Below are positions 1 through 9,722 of a stretch of 64,000 nt of DNA, piece after piece; within the stretch, counting starts at the first letter, position 1; every line of letters begins with the position of its first letter. Both the position numbers and the translations under genes were made by a program. The stretch is taken from contig JADCFQ010000022.1 of the NCBI GenBank assembly GCA_020249435.1, forward strand, positions 1 to 64,000, given 5' to 3'. The DNA comes from Roseomonas sp. (GTDB lineage: Bacteria > Pseudomonadota > Alphaproteobacteria > Acetobacterales > Acetobacteraceae). The notes below the pieces were generated by a model. The model was not told the DNA's origin and did not search any database. It saw only the letters and a list, made by a program, of their open reading frames with translations.

Positions 1-97
1 CAAGCAGCATGATCTCCGGAAGCGGGTAGACCACCTTCCAGGACTGGCGAGGGTCCTCAAGCGCAGAAAAATGATCCAGCAGTGACACAGAAGACAT
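1..97 (-). CDS. ISAs1-family transposase, N-terminal fragment (runs off the window)
   Basis: Reading the minus strand from the ATG at 97 gives a protein starting MSSVSLLDHFSALEDPRQ and continuing WKVVYPLPEIM. This is the characteristic N-terminus of ISAs1 (H-repeat) family DDE transposases, which cut and join IS ends. About 32 residues are visible before the window edge, so completeness and activity cannot be judged. It points away from the permease genes next to it. Confidence 0.8.
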   Translation of the reverse strand, partial: MSSVSLLDHFSALEDPRQSWKVVYPLPEIMLL

Positions 98-182
98 GGA
101 AAAACCTCACCAAATCGAGGTAACCCATGAATCACATTACGCCGCTCTCAGGAATCCCGAACAGTCTCAAGCGATTGCCCTG
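1..182 (-). mobile_element. ISAs1-family insertion sequence, right end (partial)
   Basis: The transposase N-terminus on the minus strand (1-97) is followed by an 85-base non-coding stretch. Reading inward from base 182 on the minus strand, the sequence begins CAGGGCAATCGC, and a CAGGG start is typical of ISAs1-family terminal repeats. I therefore place the element's outer end at about 182. The other terminal repeat and the target duplication lie outside the window, so the boundary is inferred from one end only. Confidence 0.6.
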
Positions 183-236
183 GCCCTTCCCCCGCCCTCT
201 CTTGCGCGCCGCGCCCCTGTCTTGCAGGTTGCCTGC

Positions 237-764
237 GTGTTGAATGCGCTCCGCCGCCACGCCTCCCTCGTGGTCATCTCCCTGATTGCCGTCACCGCCG
301 GGTTTGCGACCTGGCAGCTAAGGGGCGCCGATGCCTTCATGGCCGCACTTTGGCATGCCTGGGAATTATTCCTGTTCATTGTGCCATCACTGGTCGCGGG
401 GCTGCTTTTGGCCTCGGCGCTCCGGCAATTGCTCTCCCCGGATGCCTTGGCGCGCTGGATGGGGGCGGATAGCGGGGTTTTCGGGCTGTTTGTCGCAACC
501 CTGGTCGGCACGCTCTCGCCCGGAGGCCCCATGGCGGCCTTTCCGCTGGTGCTGGTGCTGGCGGGTGCCGGGGCGGATCGCGGTGCGCTGGTCGCCTTCA
601 TCCTCGCCTGGTCGCTCAATGGCTTTCAGAAGCTGTTGGTCTATGAGGCGCCGCTGCTCGGCCTTGATTTCGCGCTGCTGCGCACGCTGATCACCTTCCC
701 CATGCCCATCATCGCGGGCTGGATCGCGCGGCGCGTGCCCATCACCTGGGAACCGCCGAAATGA
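237..764 (+). CDS. half-size permease, first of a tandem pair
   Basis: This is an integral membrane protein of about 175 residues with four or five hydrophobic segments and the motif TLSPGGPMAAFPLV near residues 92-105. Its paralogue follows directly and shares the PGGP...FPLV core and the spacing around it, so the two look like halves of a COG0701/ArsP-like permease made as separate chains. The open frame extends upstream to 96, but that ATG lies inside the insertion sequence end, so I prefer the GTG at 237 (or TTG at 240), which matches the length of the partner. No good ribosome site is visible there, and the true N-terminus may have been altered by the insertion. The substrate is unknown. 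Confidence 0.6.
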   Translation: MLNALRRHASLVVISLIAVTAGFATWQLRGADAFMAALWHAWELFLFIVPSLVAGLLLASALRQLLSPDALARWMGADSGVFGLFVATLVGTLSPGGPMAAFPLVLVLAGAGADRGALVAFILAWSLNGFQKLLVYEAPLLGLDFALLRTLITFPMPIIAGWIARRVPITWEPPK

Positions 765-1276
765 GTGGGCCGCAAATCATCCTTTGGGTCATTGCCTTGG
801 TGGTGCTGGCACTTTGCATGCGCCGCGGCATGCCCCAGGCAAGGCGCGCAGTGGCCGAGACCAATCGCGGCTTTTGGCGCATCCTGCCCATGTTCTGCGT
901 GGCGCTGCCGATGGCGGCGTTTCTTTCAGAACTTGTGCCGGCGGATATCGCAACCGCCTGGCTTGGCGATGATTCCGGCCTGAATGGCATCATGATCGCG
1001 GCACTGGCTGGCGGTATCATGCCCGGCGGGCCTTTTGTGACCTTCCCTTTGGTGATCACCTTCAGCAAGGCGGGCGCAGGGGTTGCGCAAATGACCGCGC
1101 TGCTCACCGCTTGGTCGGTCTATGCACTGCACAGGATCTTGACCTGGGAATACCCGGTGCTCGGCTGGCGCTTTGTGGCGCTGCGCCTGGCATCGTCCTT
1201 TTTCCTGCCGGTGCTGGCCGGCTTGATCATGCAGGCGCTGTTGCCGTTTTTCGCGATCAATCTGGCGGCGCCTTGA
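761..1276 (+). CDS. half-size permease, second of a tandem pair
   Basis: This 171-residue membrane protein starts with an ATGA overlap onto the upstream gene, which indicates translational coupling. Hydrophobic segments lie near residues 5-22, 40-60, 75-90, 92-125 and 140-165. The motif GGIMPGGPFVTFPLV (about 84-98) matches the upstream protein's PGGP region, and both follow it with an AWS/alanine-rich helix and a conserved glutamate before PxLG. The pair probably forms a heterodimer. COG0701 permeases usually carry both halves in one chain and have a Pro-Cys motif at this place; here it is replaced by PGGP. Family assignment is tentative. Confidence 0.65.
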   Translation: MSGPQIILWVIALVVLALCMRRGMPQARRAVAETNRGFWRILPMFCVALPMAAFLSELVPADIATAWLGDDSGLNGIMIAALAGGIMPGGPFVTFPLVITFSKAGAGVAQMTALLTAWSVYALHRILTWEYPVLGWRFVALRLASSFFLPVLAGLIMQALLPFFAINLAAP

Positions 1277-1960: not shown

Positions 1961-2746
1961 ATGGAACCCACCGCCGAAGCCGCCGATTGGTCAGACCTGC
2001 TCGCTTTGCGTGACAGCGCGGGCGCGGCGCTGCCCGCTGGCCCGCTTGCCGCGCTATTTGGCCCGGTGCTGGCGCCGCCCTCAGCCCCTGATGGCTGCCG
2101 GGTGATCGGGCGGCTCGCGCAAACGCTGGATGGCCGCATCGCCACCGCTGCCGGGTCCAGCCAATGGATCGGTGGCCCGGGCGATATCCTGCACACGCAT
2201 CGGCTGCGCGCCCTGTGCCACGCGGTCGTGGTGGGCGCGGGCACGGTGCGGCATGACAATCCGCGCCTCACCACCCGCGAAGTGCCGGGGCCGGACCCGC
2301 TTCGCGTGGTGCTGGATACGGATCGCAAACTCTCGGCCGATTACGGCATTTTCCAGAGCGGGCCGCCGACCCTGCTGGTCTGCGCTGGCGATGCCGGCGG
2401 GGCTGACCATCACGGCGCGGCTGAGGTTTTGCGCCTGCCGCGCGCCCCGGGCGGAGGCCTTGCCATTCCACCCTTGCTCGCAGCGCTGAAGGCGCGCGGC
2501 GCCAGCCGGATTTTTGTCGAAGGCGGCGGGCTCACGGTCTCGCGCTTTTTGGCGGCGGGCTGTCTCGATCGGCTGCATGTCACCGTGGCGCCTGTGCTGC
2601 TCGGTTCCGGCATTCCGGCCTTCACCTTGCCGGAAGTGGCGCGCATCGCCGATGGGCTAAGGTTCTCCTGGCGCGTGCATGATATCGCGCCCGATATCCT
2701 GATTGATGCCGCGCTGGATCGCGCCAAGCCCGGGGGCCATGCATGA
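1961..2746 (+). CDS. stand-alone RibD C-terminal-type reductase (dihydrofolate-reductase fold)
   Basis: This 261-residue protein has the RibD_C/DHFR-like fold and no deaminase domain. Key signatures are TLDGRIA (55-61), the VGAGTVRHDNPRLT stretch (91-104), DPLRVVLD, and a VEGGG motif near residue 190. RibD_C enzymes use NADPH to reduce the ribosyl side chain of a pyrimidine phosphate in riboflavin synthesis, and fungal and archaeal versions act alone, before deamination. Here the gene opens an operon with an MDR oxidoreductase, a pterin-synthase homologue, a glycosyltransferase and a methyltransferase, so it more likely serves a special pterin- or pyrimidine-derived product. The stop overlaps the next start (ATGA). 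Confidence 0.85.
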   Translation: MEPTAEAADWSDLLALRDSAGAALPAGPLAALFGPVLAPPSAPDGCRVIGRLAQTLDGRIATAAGSSQWIGGPGDILHTHRLRALCHAVVVGAGTVRHDNPRLTTREVPGPDPLRVVLDTDRKLSADYGIFQSGPPTLLVCAGDAGGADHHGAAEVLRLPRAPGGGLAIPPLLAALKARGASRIFVEGGGLTVSRFLAAGCLDRLHVTVAPVLLGSGIPAFTLPEVARIADGLRFSWRVHDIAPDILIDAALDRAKPGGHA

Positions 2747-3726
2747 CCAAAGCGCGCGCCTTATGGACGATTGCACCCGGCGTGGCAGAACTCCGCACAG
2801 AACCCCTCCTTGTCCGCGCCCCGGATCAGGTGCTGGCGCGCATGCTGGCATCGGGCATTTCGCGCGGCACGGAGCGCCTCGTACTGGCTGGCAAGGTGCC
2901 GGAGAACCAATGGGGCGCGATGCGCTGCCCCTTGCAGGCCGGCGATTTCCCCTTCCCGGTGAAATATGGCTACAGCGGCGTGGCCCGCGTCATGGAAGGC
3001 CCGGCGGAACTCCAAGGCAGGCGGGTATTTTGCCTCCACCCGCATCAGGATGTCTTCCTCGCGCCGGCTGCCATGTGCATCCCCATCCCCGATGCAGTGC
3101 CGGATCACCGCGCCGTGCTCGGCGCCAATATGGAAACCGCGCTGAATATCCTGTGGGATGCAGAGCCCCTGGCCGGAGAGCGCGCCTTGGTGATCGGCGC
3201 CGGCGTGGTCGGCTTGCTGGTGGCCTATTTGCTCGCGCGCATCCCCGCCATGGCGGTGACGATCATTGACCCCGACCCATCGCGCTGCGCCATTGCGGAA
3301 CGCTTCGGCGTGGCTTTCGCCGCCCCGGAAGCAGCACCTACCGATCAGGAATTGATCATCCATGCCAGCGCCAATCCCGCCGGGTTGCGCCAGGCCCTAC
3401 ACTGCGCAGCCTTTGAGGCGCGGATCATCGAAGCCTCATGGTTCGGCGCCACGGAAGTCGCGTTGCCTTTGGGTGAAGCCTTCCATTCCCGCCGGCTCCG
3501 CCTGATTTCAAGCCAGGTGGGCGCCGTCGCACCCGCCATGCGGGCCCGGCGCAGCTTTGGGCAGCGCATGGCCTTGGCGCTCGGCCTGTTGGCGGACCCA
3601 GCGCTGGAGGCGCTGATCGGCCCCGCGACGCCGTTTGAAAACCTGCCACAAGCCATGCCCGGCTTGCTCAACCCCGCCCCCGGCACGCCCGCACCGCTTT
3701 GCCCCCTTGTCACCTATGGTGCATGA
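2743..3726 (+). CDS. MDR-superfamily oxidoreductase (zinc-free, BchC-like appearance)
   Basis: A 327-residue medium-chain dehydrogenase/reductase. The N-terminal GroES-like part carries ASGISRGTER (36-45) and FPFPVKYGYSGV (69-80), features seen in BchC-like and related MDR proteins. The Rossmann segment VIGAGVVGLLVAYL lies around residues 150-163 and is followed by an acidic residue after strand two (IIDPD), which favours NAD. The cysteines that bind structural zinc are not evident. It is translationally coupled to the RibD-type reductase and followed by the pterin-synthase homologue, so it probably oxidises or reduces an intermediate of that pathway. The substrate is unknown. Confidence 0.75.
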   Translation: MTKARALWTIAPGVAELRTEPLLVRAPDQVLARMLASGISRGTERLVLAGKVPENQWGAMRCPLQAGDFPFPVKYGYSGVARVMEGPAELQGRRVFCLHPHQDVFLAPAAMCIPIPDAVPDHRAVLGANMETALNILWDAEPLAGERALVIGAGVVGLLVAYLLARIPAMAVTIIDPDPSRCAIAERFGVAFAAPEAAPTDQELIIHASANPAGLRQALHCAAFEARIIEASWFGATEVALPLGEAFHSRRLRLISSQVGAVAPAMRARRSFGQRMALALGLLADPALEALIGPATPFENLPQAMPGLLNPAPGTPAPLCPLVTYGA

Positions 3727-3757
3727 AGCGCCGAACCGCACAGGAACAACCCCGCCC

Positions 3758-4174
3758 ATGTTCAGCCTGACCGTTGTTGATCACGTCATGATCGCCCATT
3801 CCTTCCGCGGCGCGGAATTCGGCCCCGCGCAACGCCTGCATGGCGCGACCTTCATTGTTGAGGCCGAGTTTCGCGCGCCGAAGCTCGATCCGCTCAATCT
3901 GCTGGTGGATATCGCGGCGGCGAAGGTGGAGCTGCGCCATATTCTGGATGGGTTTGATTATCGCAATCTGGATGCGGAACCGGTCTTCGCCGGGCAGAAC
4001 ACGACAACGGAATACCTCTGCCTTCATATCCATCGCTGCCTGTCGGCTGCCTTGGCTGAGGGCAAGCTTGGCGCCGGCGGCCAGGCGGTGACGGGGCTGA
4101 AGGTGCTGCTGCGCGAAAGCCATATCGCCTGGGCCGCCTATGAAGCCGCGCCGGGCGAGGAGCCAGCGGCCTAA
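3758..4174 (+). CDS. divergent 6-pyruvoyl-tetrahydropterin synthase / QueD-family homologue
   Basis: A 138-residue single-domain protein of the PTPS fold: a first strand with IAHSF (12-16), LHGATF (27-32), a VDIAAAKVEL helix start, FDYRNLD (66-72), a TTEY helix and a final strand with RESHIAWAAYE. Compared with canonical enzymes the catalytic Cys before the HGH motif is absent. The second His of HGH is Ala30, and the catalytic Asp-His pair reads Asp67-Tyr68. A Zn site would keep only His14 and His28. It may therefore catalyse a different reaction or bind without catalysis. The ATG at 3758 has AGGAA upstream; longer in-frame starts overlap the previous gene. Confidence 0.75.
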   Translation: MFSLTVVDHVMIAHSFRGAEFGPAQRLHGATFIVEAEFRAPKLDPLNLLVDIAAAKVELRHILDGFDYRNLDAEPVFAGQNTTTEYLCLHIHRCLSAALAEGKLGAGGQAVTGLKVLLRESHIAWAAYEAAPGEEPAA

Positions 4175-4206
4175 CCTGAGCTCGCCTAAGCCTAGCTTGA
4201 ATGCAA

Positions 4207-4232
4207 TGCAATCAATGATTACAATGATTGCA
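4207..4232. promoter_or_regulatory. inverted repeat, probable autoregulatory operator of the VapBC/FitAB pair
   Basis: TGCAATCA (4207-4214) and TGATTGCA (4225-4232) are perfect 8-base inverted arms, 18 bases between starts, directly upstream of the antitoxin gene. FitA/VapB-type ribbon-helix-helix antitoxins bind such paired sites in complex with their toxin. The AT-rich core differs from the surrounding GC-rich sequence. The operator role is inferred. Confidence 0.6.
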
Positions 4233-4249
4233 TCAAGAAGGGCGCCCCC

Positions 4250-4492
4250 ATGGCCAGCATTACCATCCGCAATCTTGATGAAGCGCTGAAGCGCAGCCTT
4301 AGAATTCGTGCCGCCGAACATGGCCGCTCCATGGAAGAGGAGGCGCGCGATATCCTCCGCCAGGCGATGAGCCGCCCCGCCCCCGCCGCCGATCTGGGGC
4401 AGGCCATCCATCGCCGCTTCGCTGCGCTTGGCGGGGTTGATCTGGACCTGCCGGAGCGTGAGGCCATGCCGGCACCGCCGCGCCTGGATTGA
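4250..4492 (+). CDS. FitA/VapB-type antitoxin
   Basis: An 80-residue protein starting MASITIRNLDEALKRSLRIR, the ribbon-helix-helix signature of FitA/VapB antitoxins (strand ITIRNL, then helices covering residues 9-40 with HGRSMEEEARDILRQA). The C-terminal part (45-80) would neutralise the PIN toxin encoded ten bases downstream. AGAAGGG lies upstream of the ATG. The module sits inside the reductase/glycosyltransferase operon rather than in its own locus, with an inverted-repeat operator just upstream. Confidence 0.88.
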   Translation: MASITIRNLDEALKRSLRIRAAEHGRSMEEEARDILRQAMSRPAPAADLGQAIHRRFAALGGVDLDLPEREAMPAPPRLD

Positions 4493-4501
4493 AGCGCGCG
4501 C

Positions 4502-4945
4502 ATGATCCTGCTGGATACCAATCTGGTCTCCGAACTCATGCGCCCCGCGCCATCCGAAGCCGTGCTGGCCTGGTTCGCCATGCAAGACGCCGCCAATTTG
4601 TATTTGAGCGCGATTGCAGAGGCCGAATTGCGCCGCGGTGCCGCCATGCTGCCGGTGGGCAAGCGGCGCCATGAATTGCAGGCCGCCATAGACGCCATGA
4701 TTGCCGAGGATTTCGCCGGCCGCACCCTGCCCTTTGACAGCGCCGCCGCCCAAGCCTTTGCGCTGGTGTTTCTGGAACGCCGCGCCGCGGGCCGCCCGAT
4801 CAGCTTTGCTGATTGCCAAATCGCCGCCATTGCCCGCGCCCGGCAGGCCGCCATCGCCACGCGCAATACCGCCGATTTTGCCGGTTGCGGCATACCGGTG
4901 ATAGACCCATGGGCGCATCAGCAAGGCCCTCGCGACACCCCATGA
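4502..4945 (+). CDS. FitB/VapC-type PIN-domain toxin ribonuclease
   Basis: A 147-residue PIN domain. The first strand MILLDTNLVSEL supplies Asp5, LSAIAEAEL supplies Glu40/Glu42, FADCQIAAIA supplies Asp104, and ATRNTADF supplies Asp125; these form the acidic Mg2+ site of VapC-like endoribonucleases. The LPVGKRRHELQ and GRTLPFDSAAA segments are typical of the FitB branch, so the enzyme appears intact. Its stop codon overlaps the start of the glycosyltransferase (ATGA), so the toxin gene is translationally linked to a pathway enzyme. Confidence 0.9.
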   Translation: MILLDTNLVSELMRPAPSEAVLAWFAMQDAANLYLSAIAEAELRRGAAMLPVGKRRHELQAAIDAMIAEDFAGRTLPFDSAAAQAFALVFLERRAAGRPISFADCQIAAIARARQAAIATRNTADFAGCGIPVIDPWAHQQGPRDTP

Positions 4946-5988
4946 CCCGCGCCATCCATCTTATCGTCCCCGCGCCCTTCAGCGCGATTTCCGGCGGCTA
5001 TATCTATGATCGCCGCATGGTCGAAGGGCTCAGCGCGCTCGGACAGGAAGTGCGTGTGGTGGAATTGGCCGGGCGCCATCCCTTCCCGGATGAAGTGGCG
5101 ACCGAAGCGGCGCGCACTGCCTTGGCAGAAATCCCCGAAGGCGCGCGCATTGTGATTGATGGCCTCGGCCTGCCTGCCTTTTTGCCGCTGGCTGATGAGC
5201 TGACACGCCGCGGCGCAACCGCGCTGATCCATCACCCAACCGCGCTTGAAACCGGTGCGCCAGCAGGCCAGCGCGAGGCCTTGCAGGCCGCCGAACGTGT
5301 GCTGTTCAGCGCCTGTGCGCGCATCATCACCACCTCCACCCTCACGGCGCGGGATTTGCCGGAAGCTTTCGGCGCGGACCCCGCACGCATCACGGTTATT
5401 GAACCCGGCACAGACCCCGCGCCGCGCGCGGTGGGTTCCGCTGGCCCCGGTTGCGCCATTCTGAGCATTGGCTTGCTCGTGCCGCGCAAAGGGCATGATG
5501 TGCTGCTCCGCGCCCTTGCGCGTCTGACGGATCTTGAATGGTCGCTCGCCATTGCGGGCGATGCCACGCGCGATCCCGTACATGCCGATGGGCTGCGGGC
5601 GCTGGCGGCAGAGCTTGGCCTTGCGCAGCGCGTGCGCTTTCTGGGCGCGCTGCCGGATGCGGCTTTGGATGCGGAATATGCGCGCGCCGATCTTTTCGCG
5701 CTCGCCACACGTTACGAAGGCTATGGCATGGCGGCCGCGGAGGCGATGGCGCGCGGCCTGCCGCTTGCGATCACCGCCGGCGGCGCGATTGCCGATATTG
5801 TGCCGGAAGATGCTGCCGTGGTGGCGGCAGTGGATGACCACACTGCGCTGTCACGCGCCATGCGCCGGCCGATTTTCGATACGGGCTTGCTCGCCGCCAT
5901 GGCTGAAGCCTCCTGGCGTGCGGGCCAGGCCTTGCCGCGTTGGCCGGACCGCGCCGCCGCTTTCCTGAAAGCTCTTGATCATGGCTGA
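4942..5988 (+). CDS. GT4-family glycosyltransferase
   Basis: A 348-residue GT-B enzyme. The N-terminal acceptor half begins IHLIVPAPFSAISGGYIYDR. The C-terminal donor half contains VIEPGTD (153-158), SIGLLVPRKGHD (175-186) and RYEGYGMAAAEAMARGLPL (257-275), the E...E sugar-nucleotide-binding motif of GT4 retaining transferases. The ATG at 4942 overlaps the toxin stop. The end overlaps the methyltransferase start, placing it in the same operon as the reductase and pterin-synthase homologue. The context suggests glycosylation of a small molecule rather than cell-surface polysaccharide, but no acceptor can be read from sequence. Confidence 0.87.
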   Translation: MTRAIHLIVPAPFSAISGGYIYDRRMVEGLSALGQEVRVVELAGRHPFPDEVATEAARTALAEIPEGARIVIDGLGLPAFLPLADELTRRGATALIHHPTALETGAPAGQREALQAAERVLFSACARIITTSTLTARDLPEAFGADPARITVIEPGTDPAPRAVGSAGPGCAILSIGLLVPRKGHDVLLRALARLTDLEWSLAIAGDATRDPVHADGLRALAAELGLAQRVRFLGALPDAALDAEYARADLFALATRYEGYGMAAAEAMARGLPLAITAGGAIADIVPEDAAVVAAVDDHTALSRAMRRPIFDTGLLAAMAEASWRAGQALPRWPDRAAAFLKALDHG

Positions 5989-6856
5989 AAGCTTCGATGG
6001 TGATTGGCTCGACCTGCGCGAGCCTTATGACGCTGCGGCACGCAATCCTGAATTGGCCGCGATGCTCGCGGCATCCCTGCCGGCGCGGCCGCGCCTGCTT
6101 GATCTTGGCGCGGGCACGGGCAGCTTGCTGCGCTGGCTTGGCCATTTCATCGGGCGCGCGCAAAGCTGGACCTTGGTGGATAGCGACGCCGAACTGCTCG
6201 CCCGCGCCTTTGATACCATCGCCGATCGTGCCGAGGCCGTGGGTTGGCCAGCCACCAATCCAGGGCGCAGCGCACTGCTGGTCCATGCGCCGCATGGCGC
6301 CTGGCGCATTGAAGCGATCCTTGCTGACCTTGCCGCCGCACCGGCCAATCTGCCCTTGGAACGCGTGGATGCGGTGGTGAGCACGGCGCTTTGTGATCTG
6401 GTCTCGCGCGGTTGGGTGGAAGCCATGGCCGCTGCCTGCGCCGCACGGCGCCTGCCCTTCTACGCTGCGCTGAATGTGACGGGGCGTGAGCGCTTCACCC
6501 CGCCCCATGCCGCCGACGCGCTGGTGGCGCGCGGCTTTCGCCGCGACCAGGCGCGTGACAAGGGCTTTGGTGGCGCATCACTCGGGCCGCAGGCGCCCGC
6601 CGTGATGGCGGAAGCCTTTGCCGCGCATGGCTATGCCATTCATCGCGCGCCGAGTGATTGGGTGGTGGATCGCCGCGCCCGCGCCTTTACCCGCGCCATT
6701 GCCGATGGCCATGGCCTGGCCGCAATCGGCTGGGAAAGGCGCGGTGCGGAGGCCATTCTGGATTGGCTTGAAACGCGGCGCGATCAGGCCGATGCCGGGC
6801 AGCTTACCGTACGCATCGGTCATCAGGATTTCCTCGCCCTTCCTCCTGCAAGGTAG
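5981..6856 (+). CDS. SAM-dependent class I methyltransferase
   Basis: A 291-residue protein with a Rossmann-type SAM-binding motif LLDLGAGTGSLLRWL (39-53), then WTLVDSD with the acidic residue expected to bind the SAM ribose. It starts at 5981, overlapping the glycosyltransferase end by eight bases; a TTG at 5975 is a less likely start. As the last gene of the cluster it may methylate the glycosylated product. The C-terminal half (VTGRERFTPPHAADALVARGF) is not one I can assign to a specific substrate class. Confidence 0.82.
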   Translation: MAESFDGDWLDLREPYDAAARNPELAAMLAASLPARPRLLDLGAGTGSLLRWLGHFIGRAQSWTLVDSDAELLARAFDTIADRAEAVGWPATNPGRSALLVHAPHGAWRIEAILADLAAAPANLPLERVDAVVSTALCDLVSRGWVEAMAAACAARRLPFYAALNVTGRERFTPPHAADALVARGFRRDQARDKGFGGASLGPQAPAVMAEAFAAHGYAIHRAPSDWVVDRRARAFTRAIADGHGLAAIGWERRGAEAILDWLETRRDQADAGQLTVRIGHQDFLALPPAR

Positions 6857-6862
6857 TTGCAC

Positions 6863-8122
6863 ATGCCCCTTTTGCTTGGCTGCATCGCGGATGATTTCAC
6901 GGGGGCGACGGACCTCGCGAATACGCTTGTCAAAGGCGGCATGAGTGCCGTGCAGGTGATTGGCGTGCCGACCGGGCCGCTACCGGAAGCGGATGCCGTG
7001 ATTATCGCACTGAAATCGCGCACCGCGCCGGTGGGTGAAGCGGTGGCGCAATCGCTTGCCGCTTGTGATGCGCTGCTGGTGGCTGGCGCGAAGCAGATTT
7101 TCTGGAAATATTGCTCGACTTTTGACAGCACGGATCAGGGCAATATCGGGCCTGTCGCGGATGCGCTGCTGAAACGGTTGGGGTCTGGCTTTGCGCTGGC
7201 CTGCCCGGCCTTTCCGACCAATGGGCGCACGATCTATTTGGGCCATCTTTTTGTCGGCAATGCGCTGCTGAATGAAAGTGGCATGGAAAACCATCCGCTG
7301 ACGCCAATGACCGATGCCAATCTGGTGCGCGTCTTGGGCCGGCAGACCGATGGCGCGGTGGGGCTGGTGCCTTTCACGACCGTTGAACAAGGTGCCGCCG
7401 CCACGCGCCAAGCCATGATGCGCCTTGCCGAGCAAGGCCGGCGCTATGCAATTGTGGATGCGGTGACGGATCAGCATTTGCTCGCGATTGGTGAGGCTGC
7501 TGCACAACACGCGCTGATCACCGGTGGTTCCGGTGTGGCGATGGGCCTGCCTGAGAATTTCCGCCGCGCCGGCCTGCTGCCCGCGCGTGGCGATGCCGCC
7601 AGCCTGCCGCCCATGCAGGGCATGGCGGCGGTGGTGGCGGGGTCCTGCTCGCGCGCGACACTTGGGCAAATCGGCCTCGCACGGGATCACGTGCCGGTGC
7701 TGGAATTGGATGCGCTGGCAACACCTGATGCAGCGGCGCTGACGGTACAGGCGCTGGAATGGGTCGCGGGCAAATTGGCCGCTGATCGCCCGGTGGTGAT
7801 TGCCGCCAGCGCACCGCCGGAAAAGGTCGCCGCATTGCAAGCGAAGCTTGGGCGCGATGCTGCCGGCGCGCTGATTGAAGCTGCCATGGCCGCGATTGCG
7901 GAAGGCTTGGTCGCGCGCGGTGTCGGCAGGCTTGTGGTGGCGGGGGGCGAGACTTCGGGCGCTGTCGTGCAGCGGCTTGGTGTCACGGCGCTCCGCATCG
8001 GTCCCGAAATTGACCCAGGCGTGCCCTGGACTTTTGCCGAGCCGCGCGGGCTGCATCTGGCGCTTAAATCCGGCAATTTTGGTGCACGCGATTTCTTCCT
8101 GAAGGCCTTCAGCCATGGATGA
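6863..8122 (+). CDS. otnK: 3-oxo-tetronate kinase (DUF1537 family)
   Basis: A 419-residue DUF1537 kinase, the expected family length. The N-terminal domain opens LGCIADDFTGATDLANTL, with the conserved Asp/Thr substrate loop. The C-terminal nucleotide-binding domain includes VAGSCSRATLGQI and VVAGGETSGAVVQRLGV. Family members phosphorylate four-carbon 3-oxo acids (3-oxo-tetronates) at O4. The next gene, overlapping by eight bases, encodes the matching 4-phosphate decarboxylase, so the pair should convert a tetronate to dihydroxyacetone phosphate and CO2. AAGG precedes the ATG at 6863. No cognate dehydrogenase or OtnI isomerase is adjacent. Confidence 0.9.
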   Translation: MPLLLGCIADDFTGATDLANTLVKGGMSAVQVIGVPTGPLPEADAVIIALKSRTAPVGEAVAQSLAACDALLVAGAKQIFWKYCSTFDSTDQGNIGPVADALLKRLGSGFALACPAFPTNGRTIYLGHLFVGNALLNESGMENHPLTPMTDANLVRVLGRQTDGAVGLVPFTTVEQGAAATRQAMMRLAEQGRRYAIVDAVTDQHLLAIGEAAAQHALITGGSGVAMGLPENFRRAGLLPARGDAASLPPMQGMAAVVAGSCSRATLGQIGLARDHVPVLELDALATPDAAALTVQALEWVAGKLAADRPVVIAASAPPEKVAALQAKLGRDAAGALIEAAMAAIAEGLVARGVGRLVVAGGETSGAVVQRLGVTALRIGPEIDPGVPWTFAEPRGLHLALKSGNFGARDFFLKAFSHG

Positions 8123-8747
8123 GGCGGCGCTGCGCGCGCAACTCGCTGCCCTTGGTGCCTCACTTTTTGCACGCGGCTATTCGGTGGGGACCGCGGGCAA
8201 TATCAGCGTGCGCCTGCCGGATGGGTTTCTGATGACGCCGACCAATTCCTGCCTGGGGCGGCTTGATCCCGCGCGCATATCGAAGCTCGCGCCAGATTTT
8301 TCGCATGTTTCGGGTGACAAGCCATCCAAGGAAGTTTTCATGCATCGCGCGGTGCTGACCGCGCGGCCCGATGCGGGGGCGGTCGTGCATTTGCACTCAA
8401 CCCATGCCACCGCGATTGCCTGCCTCGCCGAACCCGGGGAGGTCGCGCCCATCCCGCCGCTGACACCTTATTTCGTGATGCGTGTCGGGCGGCTTTTGCC
8501 GGTGATCCGCTATTATCGCCCGGGCGATGGCGCAATGGAAAACGATATCCACGAAGCCGCCAAAACCGCCAAGGCCGTGCTGCTCGCCAATCATGGCCCG
8601 GTGGTATCGGGCCGCACATTGGAAGATGCCGTGCATGCTTCAGAAGAATTGGAAGAAGCCGCGCGGCTTGCGCTGCTGCTGCGCGGTGCCGGTGCGCGTA
8701 GCCTGACGCCGGCGCAGGTGGATGATCTGCTGAATACTTTTGGCTGA
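8115..8747 (+). CDS. otnC: 3-oxo-tetronate 4-phosphate decarboxylase (class II aldolase/adducin)
   Basis: A 210-residue class II aldolase fold. SVGTAGNISVRLPDGFLMTPT gives the phosphate-binding stretch, PSKEVFMHRAV has the catalytic Glu, VVHLHSTHATA holds two zinc-binding histidines, and LLANHGPVVSG the third. OtnC decarboxylates the product of OtnK to dihydroxyacetone phosphate. The gene overlaps otnK and precedes a small gene by three bases. The alternative reading as a fuculose- or ribulose-phosphate aldolase is less likely beside otnK. Confidence 0.88.
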   Translation: MDEAALRAQLAALGASLFARGYSVGTAGNISVRLPDGFLMTPTNSCLGRLDPARISKLAPDFSHVSGDKPSKEVFMHRAVLTARPDAGAVVHLHSTHATAIACLAEPGEVAPIPPLTPYFVMRVGRLLPVIRYYRPGDGAMENDIHEAAKTAKAVLLANHGPVVSGRTLEDAVHASEELEEAARLALLLRGAGARSLTPAQVDDLLNTFG

Positions 8748-8750
8748 TCC

Positions 8751-9086
8751 ATGTGGATCATGATCGCCGCGCCTTACACAAGTGGTGGCGCCGATGCTGC
8801 GCTCCGCGCCGCGCGGTTGGCTGAGATGAACCAGGCAGCACTCGCGATCCTCAGGCTTGGTCATATCCCGGTGATTGGCGTGAATATGGCACTGCCGATC
8901 ATCGCCATCGCTGAGGGCGATGTGTTTGACGAGGTGATGATGCCGCTGTCACTTGCCTTGGCTGAGCGTTGCGATGCCGTGCTACGCCTGGGTGGGCCAA
9001 GCAAAGGCGCGGATCAGGAAGTCGGGCGCTTCAGGCAGGCAGGAAAGCCCGTATATCTTGCGTTGAAGGATATTCCGTCACAGTAA
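8751..9086 (+). CDS. small DUF4406 / nucleoside 2-deoxyribosyltransferase-like protein
   Basis: A 111-residue protein beginning MWIMIAAPYTSGGAD, with the short Rossmann-like pattern (IAAPYTS, GHIPVIGVNMALP, CDAVLRLGGPSKGADQE) seen in DUF4406 and nucleoside 2-deoxyribosyltransferase relatives. Those proteins bind nucleotides or sugar-nucleotides, but no function is assured here. It lies three bases after otnC and is probably in the same operon. A degenerate copy of its last 75 bases recurs at 9861-9935 beyond the toxin-antitoxin genes. No clear ribosome site is visible, consistent with coupling to otnC. Confidence 0.65.
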   Translation: MWIMIAAPYTSGGADAALRAARLAEMNQAALAILRLGHIPVIGVNMALPIIAIAEGDVFDEVMMPLSLALAERCDAVLRLGGPSKGADQEVGRFRQAGKPVYLALKDIPSQ

Positions 9087-9102: not shown

Positions 9103-9495
9103 TTATTCTTCCTTCGGACGATCCACGCTCACCGCATTCTCACGCAACCATGCCGCAAGTCGGCCATGGCTGAATGACCTGCCTTCCAGATTTTCGATAA
9201 TGAAGCGATAGAGCGTCTTTGCATCTTGCCTGATCGCATAGCCATTGATCGCCAGAAAGGTGATCATGACTGCCGCAGCCACACGCTTGTTGCCATCAAC
9301 AAAGGGATGGTTCATGGCCAGGCTCTCCCACAGAGCCGCCGCTTCCTCGATTACATCCTCGTAATAGCCCGTCTGAGGACGATGCAGCGCGGCCTCAAGC
9401 AGCCCGAAATCACGAACGCCATTTGCGCCGCCATAGCGCTTGATCTGGTCGTGATGAATCGCCAGGACCTCAATAATGGTCAGGTAATCCGTCAT
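9103..9495 (-). CDS. doc: death-on-curing (Doc) type Fic-domain toxin
   Basis: A 130-residue Fic-fold protein of Doc size. It carries the motif HPFVDGNKR at residues 63-71 (Doc consensus HxFxxGNKR), preceded by a typical Doc helix DFGLLEAALHRPQ. Doc toxins phosphorylate and inactivate elongation factor Tu. The start overlaps the antitoxin stop (ATGA), giving the antitoxin-first order expected of a type II module. The motif looks intact, so the toxin is probably active unless neutralised. Confidence 0.9.
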   Translation of the reverse strand: MTDYLTIIEVLAIHHDQIKRYGGANGVRDFGLLEAALHRPQTGYYEDVIEEAAALWESLAMNHPFVDGNKRVAAAVMITFLAINGYAIRQDAKTLYRFIIENLEGRSFSHGRLAAWLRENAVSVDRPKEE

Positions 9496-9722
9496 TCAGC
9501 CAGTTTCGCGTAGAGCTCGGCATATTTCTCATGGGTGGCCTCATAGGCCGCCATGACATGGGCGCGCGGGCGGGCGCGTTTGCGCTTGTCAATGAGATCA
9601 GAAAGCGCCTCGTCAACCAGCGCCTGCAACTGCCGCCCTTCGCTCTTGGCGAGGCTGCGGAGCGTGGCGAGGGTTTCAGACCTCACCTGGGTGGCGAATT
9701 TTTCACGGATTGGATCGGCCAT
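9492..9722 (-). CDS. antitoxin of the Doc-type module
   Basis: A 76-residue protein starting MADPIREKFATQVRSETLA, with a ribbon-helix-helix-like N-terminus (TQVRSETLATLRSLAKSEGRQ) and a charged helical C-terminus. It directly precedes and overlaps the doc-type toxin gene. It is not a classic Phd sequence but matches the RHH antitoxins sometimes paired with Fic/Doc toxins. The promoter region carries palindromic sites consistent with self-repression. Confidence 0.8.
   Translation of the reverse strand: MADPIREKFATQVRSETLATLRSLAKSEGRQLQALVDEALSDLIDKRKRARPRAHVMAAYEATHEKYAELYAKLAE

Follow-up and report, generated by a model that had tools for sequence, protein, structure and literature searches.

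The locus

Five enzymes are encoded on the + strand between positions 1961 and 6856 of the window, which is the whole 64,000-nt stretch of Roseomonas sp. contig JADCFQ010000022.1 analyzed here. They are a stand-alone RibD_C reductase, an MDR-superfamily oxidoreductase, a PTPS homologue, a GT4 glycosyltransferase, and an S-adenosylmethionine (SAM)-dependent methyltransferase (Table 1). A sequence-only reading had described these genes as one tightly overlapping run. All five do lie in the interval, with the RibD_C and MDR genes sharing 4 bases and the GT4 and methyltransferase genes 8, but a FitA-like/PIN toxin-antitoxin pair, absent from that description, splits the PTPS homologue from the GT4 gene. 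The five genes are a conserved unit, found in Alphaproteobacteria, in other phyla, and on plasmids, and their neighbors and active sites suggest what they might make.

Table 1. Features of the locus and its surroundings (positions in the window).
Feature	Position	Strand	Evidence or remark
ArsP_1 permease genes, two, short, in tandem	96-1276		both cover one and the same opening segment of the 294-position model (14-131 and 13-135)
RibD_C reductase, stand-alone	1961-2746	+	PF01872, 133.6 bits
Oxidoreductase of the MDR superfamily, remotely similar to BchC, no conserved Cys zinc ligands	2743-3726	+	MDR models, including BchC
PTPS homologue, SCO6650 type; Ala at the positions of the catalytic Cys and one zinc His	3758-4174	+	PTPS-type T-fold profile PF01242, 67.6 bits (cut-off 22.4)
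FitA-like ribbon-helix-helix (RHH) antitoxin, apparently inserted in the operon, outside the pathway	4250-4492	+	PF22513, 73 bits
PIN-domain toxin partner, apparently inserted in the operon, outside the pathway	4502-4945	+	PF01850, 44.6 bits
GT4 glycosyltransferase (GT-B, retaining type), E-x7-E motif	4942-5988	+	PF00534, 93.5 bits
Class I SAM methyltransferase	5981-6856	+	Methyltransf_25 (PF13649), 26.2 bits (cut-off 27)
3-oxo-tetronate kinase and 3-oxo-tetronate 4-phosphate decarboxylase	6863-8747		above NCBIfam cut-offs; start six bases past the methyltransferase gene
DUF1937 small protein	8751-9086		follows the tetronate genes
Fic/Doc-family protein	9103-9722	-	small RHH protein upstream (match below cut-off)

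Conservation of the five genes

Within the window's genus, each of the 23 genomes searched (the window's own included) has the PTPS homologue; of 16 other genomes of the class, one does. Among 385 evenly sampled alphaproteobacterial genomes it occurs in 45, again counting the window's own, and in none of the four sampled genomes from other genera of the window's family. It is 99% identical in a Roseomonas metagenome-assembled genome and in another such genome labeled Asaia bogorensis. The surroundings of all 45 alphaproteobacterial bearers were searched with family profiles; since several stretches end at contig edges, the counts are lower bounds. Near the PTPS homologue lie the MDR gene in 44 loci, GT4 in 43, the methyltransferase in 39, and RibD_C in 36. 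The MDR, PTPS, GT4, and methyltransferase genes are together in 38 of the 45, and all five in 31. As controls, the tetronate, FitA, and PIN genes flanking or interrupting the cluster occur at a single locus, that of the window, and the pair of ArsP permeases at two. The five genes are co-located far more often than any of them is with the window's other neighbors, and they constitute a conserved unit. The neighborhood comparison that the sequence-only reading had called for, covering gene order with and without a GTP cyclohydrolase, thus finds them kept together far beyond the Acetobacteraceae. Pairwise distances of the five proteins are also correlated (Spearman 0.30-0.66, a level reached by no more than one of 500 permutations, in 45 loci taken from 55 non-redundant ones), a correlation to which shared host ancestry contributes. 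BLAST clustering of unassigned neighbors yielded no further members, and its output was judged to be dominated by antisense frames of GC-rich DNA.

The unit also extends to Actinomycetota, Gemmatimonadota, an acidobacterium, Chromatiaceae, and plasmids, and so to at least four phyla. A scan of genome contigs returned at least 593 pattern matches, at least 563 of them confirmed; the best 80 were analyzed, a set that leans toward the window's relatives. Grouped by record title, it comprises 33 loci from Actinomycetota, three from Gemmatimonadota, two from Acidobacteria or Nannocystaceae, 36 from the window's clade, and six from other Pseudomonadota. The MDR gene is found in 79 of these 80 loci, GT4 in 77, the methyltransferase in 74, and RibD_C in 51, accompanied by a CDP-alcohol phosphotransferase in 38, an LPG_synthase_TM protein in 36, GTP cyclohydrolase II (GCH II) in 30, and a creatininase-family protein in 25. 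The 36 loci of the window's clade carry the bare five genes, with RibD_C and the methyltransferase each in 34 and none of these four accessory families nearby. The 33 actinobacterial loci are much richer: CDP-alcohol phosphotransferase in 32, LPG_synthase_TM in 31, GCH II in 28, and creatininase in 22, with RibD_C in only 13. Among plasmids, 20 records hold the PTPS homologue, and in the 13 neighborhoods examined (one of them, from Arthrobacter, unannotated) the MDR gene occurs in 11, GT4 and the methyltransferase in 10 each, and RibD_C in eight.

The PTPS homologue and its active site

The closest solved relative of the window's PTPS homologue is 3d7j, the SCO6650 protein of Streptomyces coelicolor, matched over 133 residues (E 4e-42). 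An alignment of 152 loci, six or more of them duplicates of a place already included, shows Ala (151) or Ser (1) where the catalytic Cys would precede the HGH motif. At the second HGH His, a zinc ligand, all 152 have Ala; the other two zinc His are kept throughout. The catalytic His of the Asp-His pair is replaced by Tyr (139), Phe (12), or Leu (1). Glu120, which we take to be the PTPS pterin anchor, is kept in 152 of 152 loci, as is Glu85, and Thr84 in 150. The assignment of these sites to PTPS chemistry is presumptive and comes from a visual comparison of familiar motifs with the window's FGPAQRLHGATF.

Most annotated plasmid copies are publicly labeled "6-carboxytetrahydropterin synthase," and the QueD model does match weakly (36.5 bits against a cut-off of 89). 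Because the catalytic Cys and a zinc His are replaced in all 152 loci, however, a PTPS or QueD identity is unlikely judging from these residues. The constancy of the remaining site makes the protein look like a family with a conserved site of its own rather than a decayed PTPS. What had been called a "PTPS/QueD-like protein" is thus a true PF01242 homologue that has lost the catalytic residues.

The other four enzymes

The profile search matched the RibD_C domain alone in the window's reductase, with no deaminase domain found. The best structural matches of the family profile, 6p8c and 2azn, are archaeal-type 2,5-diamino-6-ribosylamino-pyrimidinone 5'-phosphate reductases, which act before deamination; DHFRs are among the weaker matches, and RibD_C itself has a DHFR-like fold. 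The MDR protein is below the Pfam cut-off (ADH_zinc_N, 19 against 31.8 bits). Its best NCBIfam match is BchC (TIGR01202), yet at 47.5 bits this falls far below the equivalog cut-off of 291, and BchC-type dehydrogenases belong to a different operon. In a 20-sequence alignment no Cys stands among its invariant or nearly invariant columns, so that conserved Cys zinc ligands are not seen there, and the stretch where zinc-dependent MDR alcohol dehydrogenases usually have GHE reads KYGY. In the GT4 protein the E-x7-E motif is intact, with E255 invariant and E263 nearly so. The Methyltransf_25 match of the methyltransferase spans residues 42-83, and its best match to a solved structure (E 1.5e-4) covers the N-terminal part only; the C-terminal part is conserved in alignment but matches no Pfam family.

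GTP cyclohydrolase II and the entry step

The sequence-only reading had placed the entry enzyme, a GTP cyclohydrolase, outside the window, and the cluster there indeed has no GCH II of its own, nor has any of ten loci of the window's genus. Elsewhere the enzyme lies within about 9 kb of the cluster in 18 of the 45 alphaproteobacterial loci (one of them, L168, with a degenerate copy 8 kb off) and in the 28 actinobacterial loci mentioned above. A creatininase-family gene is near eight of the 45.

Of 52 GCH II-like proteins from such clusters (L028, L038, and L099 were left out), 29 have Tyr at the position of the RibA Tyr, 11 have Met, another 11 have His, and one, a degenerate copy, has Arg. 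A creatininase-family gene is near all 22 of the Met/His type, which are all from Actinomycetota, versus six of the 29 Tyr-type proteins (Fisher 2e-9, uncorrected for relatedness). The change from Tyr to Met reportedly makes SCO6655 of S. coelicolor stop at the formylated intermediate FAPy, and ArfB, the archaeal FAPy deformylase, is a creatininase homologue. By analogy, a Met/His-type GCH II and a creatininase protein together would arrive at the ordinary GCH II product along a different route.

The window's genome has two PF00925 matches, C36 and C48. The former is an intact RibA-like protein with the usual Tyr; the latter is the degenerate GCH II tail of a RibBA-like protein inside an apparently ordinary ribD-ribE-ribBA-like-ribH operon that also has a full-length RibD. 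With one intact RibA-like protein and one degenerate riboflavin-operon tail, a dedicated GCH II is ruled out in this genome. Searches there also returned four creatininase matches and one of LPG_synthase_TM, none tied to the cluster.

Lipid-type accessory genes

A CDP-alcohol phosphotransferase is encoded near 15 of the 45 alphaproteobacterial loci at E <=1e-8, or near 13 when each open reading frame is given to its best family. The linked family keeps DG-AR-G-D-D, presumably the motif of CDP-alcohol phosphotransferases. At E <=1e-25 it is found in 23 of the 385 genomes, and 22 of these carry the PTPS homologue (Fisher 2e-22, uncorrected for relatedness); the sole exception, G149, is 74% complete. 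Since in seven of the 22 (G037, G050, G197, G206, G227, G255, and G293) the enzyme is encoded on a different contig from the cluster or 15 kb or more from it, the link is more than positional. This association of 22 in 23 genomes is the best support for a product that, in bearers of the transferase, is probably coupled to a lipid or phospho-alcohol. The flippase-like LPG_synthase_TM proteins near actinobacterial and some other clusters would fit export or flipping; none was found near the 45 alphaproteobacterial loci. A cytochrome b561 gene lies near nine of these 45.

GTP cyclohydrolase I and folate

GTP cyclohydrolase I is present in 41 of the 45 alphaproteobacterial bearer genomes. The other four (G183, G281, G359, and G251, 94-98% complete) have HPPK, but neither FolE nor FolE2 was found in them. 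Three of these four are genomes of 1.4-1.6 Mb in which seven genes stand together: creatininase, MDR, PTPS, GT4, methyltransferase, RibD_C, and GCH II. That genomes so small keep seven genes together argues for a product of value. Of 41 genomes in the family of G281, 27 have the PTPS homologue; since the 99% complete G052 is without it, it is dispensable there. The cluster may stand in for GTP cyclohydrolase I in folate synthesis in these bearers. The absence of FolE and FolE2 proves little by itself, because Chlamydia and Wolbachia likewise have folKP and lack both GTP cyclohydrolase I types, according to one study (PMC1971073).

One bearer, G253, shows a different arrangement. A divergent GTP cyclohydrolase I gene adjoins its MDR gene (L179:10808-11575), with no GCH II or RibD_C found nearby. 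When the G253 protein was used as the single query, this gene was itself the one match in 154 fetched loci.

A proposed pathway

We think it rather probable that the five genes are an uncharacterized conserved operon that converts a GCH II product into a glycosylated, methylated pterin-like compound; the reactions and their order we infer. In broader terms, the product is probably a sugar-bearing methylated compound made from GTP, possibly a pterin and possibly attached to a lipid in some bearers. The entry substrate would most likely be the GCH II product 2,5-diamino-6-(5-phosphoribosylamino)-4(3H)-pyrimidinone, which the window's strain would draw from its single intact GCH II, while other bearers carry a GCH II in the cluster. 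RibD_C would then turn the ribosyl into a ribityl chain by reduction, with no deamination beforehand, and the MDR enzyme would oxidize a side-chain alcohol. The zinc-less T-fold of the PTPS homologue may bind the 2-amino-4-oxo-pyrimidine face, and make or isomerize a pterin-type ring. GT4 would add a sugar, after which the methyltransferase would add a methyl group. A CDP-alcohol phosphotransferase accompanies the set in 22 of the 45 alphaproteobacterial bearers and 32 of the 33 actinobacterial loci, and an LPG_synthase_TM protein in 31 of those 33, so that the product in such bearers would probably be coupled to a lipid or phospho-alcohol. The glycosylated and methylated pterin- or pyrimidine-like compound of the sequence-only reading stands on genes that are conserved together and linked to GCH II; the identity of the compound itself we infer.

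Several observations weigh against such a pathway. RibD_C is wanting near the cluster in nine of the 45 alphaproteobacterial and 20 of the 33 actinobacterial loci. Three of those nine genomes have a strong RibD_C match elsewhere (229-281 bits), and the apparent full-length RibDs score 129-157 bits. The window's RibD_C reaches 91 bits with TIGR01508, the archaeal reductase equivalog, whose cut-off is 186.45. In two of the 13 plasmid loci, L044 and L052, both from Streptomyces, the PTPS homologue is alone and the other four genes are not near. Regarding the entry step, the Met/His forms and their creatininase genes follow a few actinobacterial lineages and so represent few independent events, the creatininase gene also accompanies the six Tyr-type clusters, and six further loci have it with no GCH II nearby. 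The cluster creatininase proteins score 141 bits with MftE and 100 with creatininase, but 37 with the ArfB FAPy deformylase. The window's genome lacks both a dedicated GCH II and the linked CDP-alcohol transferase family, and in the cluster of G253 a GTP cyclohydrolase I is present where neither GCH II nor RibD_C was found.

A more specific version of the pathway, which we regard as unlikely, makes the operon a second, GCH II-based route to a 6-substituted dihydropterin that ends in a lipid-anchored redox pterin. Here RibD_C would reduce the ribosyl C1' and the MDR enzyme would oxidize the C2'-OH to a ketone, amounting to the Amadori rearrangement carried out by GTP cyclohydrolase I. The T-fold protein would close the ring. 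Glycosylation and methylation of the pterin would follow, and in roughly half of the alphaproteobacterial bearers the linked CDP-alcohol phosphotransferase would tie it to a membrane lipid, where the nearby cytochrome b561 could serve it. This version would explain the pairing of a reductase with a dehydrogenase, because the two would replace the Amadori step. The four bearers with HPPK but neither type of GTP cyclohydrolase I, the G253 cluster with its GTP cyclohydrolase I and without a nearby GCH II or RibD_C, and the nine loci with cytochrome b561 hint at it; the Amadori role of the MDR enzyme is weakened because G253 keeps it beside a GTP cyclohydrolase I.

Ring closure could also stop short of a pterin, so that the product would be a glycosylated, methylated diaminopyrimidine or 8-ribityl-lumazine/pterin, nearer riboflavin than folate. 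GCH II and RibD_C are riboflavin-pathway enzymes, and a PTPS homologue deprived of its catalytic Cys and one zinc His would suit this outcome, which we hold to be possible but doubtful: the same protein keeps Glu120 and Thr84-Glu85 (though a diaminopyrimidine presents the same face), and in the G253 cluster GTP cyclohydrolase I occurs without a nearby GCH II or RibD_C. That same cluster, with its cyclohydrolase beside the MDR gene, speaks for a start from the folate-pathway intermediate dihydroneopterin in the window's genus, where RibD_C would be a DHFR-like dihydropterin reductase. The one intact GCH II of the window's genome is shared with riboflavin synthesis, GTP cyclohydrolase I is common among bearers, and DHFRs appear among the RibD_C profile matches. 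The GTP cyclohydrolase I gene is nevertheless found, with the single query, in one of the 154 loci compared with 18 of 45 alphaproteobacterial loci for GCH II, and four bearers have neither type, which makes this start improbable.

That the five genes have separate roles and are mere neighbors is very hard to maintain. Each does come from a large family with other roles, and the PTPS homologue is alone in the two Streptomyces plasmid loci, but the co-localization holds across at least four phyla and plasmids, and the window's other neighbors do not follow. A part in the queuosine or another 7-deazaguanine pathway, as the public label and the weak QueD match might imply, is the least credible of these alternatives: the catalytic Cys and one zinc His are absent, and no QueC, QueE, or QueF is listed in the 12 annotated plasmid neighborhoods, whose gene table is incomplete.

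Relation to known systems

The preferred pathway, from a GCH II product to a pterin-like compound, has partial counterparts. It shares with the riboflavin pathway and the archaeal ArfA-ArfB-reductase route the use of GCH II, an archaeal-like RibD_C reductase, and, in many actinobacterial loci, a creatininase-family hydrolase. It differs from riboflavin synthesis in that the RibD_C of the cluster has no deaminase domain, and no RibB, RibH, or RibE was noticed in the clusters. The product type proposed here, a sugar-modified pterin, is that of cyanopterin and limipterin, the pterin glycosides of cyanobacteria and Chlorobium. Those pathways begin with GTP cyclohydrolase I and employ a true PTPS, whereas here the PTPS homologue is catalytically altered and the commonly linked cyclohydrolase is GCH II. 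The pteridine glycosyltransferase (PGT) of Chlorobium tepidum glycosylates tetrahydrobiopterin (PMC5683033).

On a plasmid of S. fungicidicus the genes are ordered PTPS, GT4, methyltransferase, flippase-like, creatininase, and GCH II, which would fit the numbering SCO6650-SCO6655 in S. coelicolor. This locus has its own GCH II and lipid-type genes and no RibD_C within 9 kb, while the window has RibD_C and none of those. SCO6650 and SCO6655 are each said to have been studied singly, SCO6650 reportedly being without zinc and PTPS activity and SCO6655 making formylated FAPy. The latter is listed as GTP cyclohydrolase II in PMC2853524. No description of the gene set was found in the open-access full-text literature, a scope that leaves most subscription journals outside, and the set is not described in passages of PMC2853524 and PMC3509567. 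The main text of a 2026 review of bacterial pterins has no mention of RibD, 6-pyruvoyl, GTP cyclohydrolase II, or Streptomyces (PMC13259868).

The cluster would represent a compact pathway carried by roughly one-ninth of the alphaproteobacterial genomes sampled (45 of 385), by many actinomycetes, and even by genomes of 1.4-1.6 Mb. Its product is likely a compound of real importance, and the public label of the PTPS homologue is unsupported by its residues. The pathway would provide a setting for the extra GCH II and PTPS homologue of S. coelicolor, and it could reveal a new pterin-like cofactor, signal, or membrane lipid.

Neighboring genes

The toxin-antitoxin pair was assessed by the distance between the PTPS and GT4 genes in 45 relatives of the window, a set different from the 45 alphaproteobacterial bearers. 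The gap measures 804-809 bp in five loci (the window, L031, L032, L055, and L057) and 422 bp in L080, and the remaining 39 have a gap of 12-71 bp; FitA and PIN matches occur in exactly the five with the long gap. Because the gap is so short in 39 relatives and long in five, the pair looks like an insertion into an older operon. These counts, and the presence of the pair in the window alone among the alphaproteobacterial loci, rule it out as part of the pathway.

The tetronate genes score 605 bits (kinase) and 285 bits (decarboxylase) with their models. Of the best 80 loci, 28 have the kinase and 24 the decarboxylase next to the unit, nearly all in the window's clade; the two genes adjoin it in none of the 13 plasmid loci and, among the 45 alphaproteobacterial loci, in the window alone. 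Their scores as 3-oxo-tetronate enzymes and this clade-limited adjacency rule them out as pathway members; they belong to an ordinary sugar-acid pathway that adjoins the operon mainly in the window's clade. The DUF1937 protein is found in nine of ten loci of the genus and in one of the 45 alphaproteobacterial loci. The Fic/Doc-family protein and the small RHH protein upstream of it are a second possible toxin-antitoxin pair. Finally, a gene for an MdoH-like glucan glucosyltransferase lies near ten of the 45 alphaproteobacterial loci (L146, L148, L154, L156, L157, L161, L162, L163, L170, and L172), and also near L043, L051, L075, L089, and L118.

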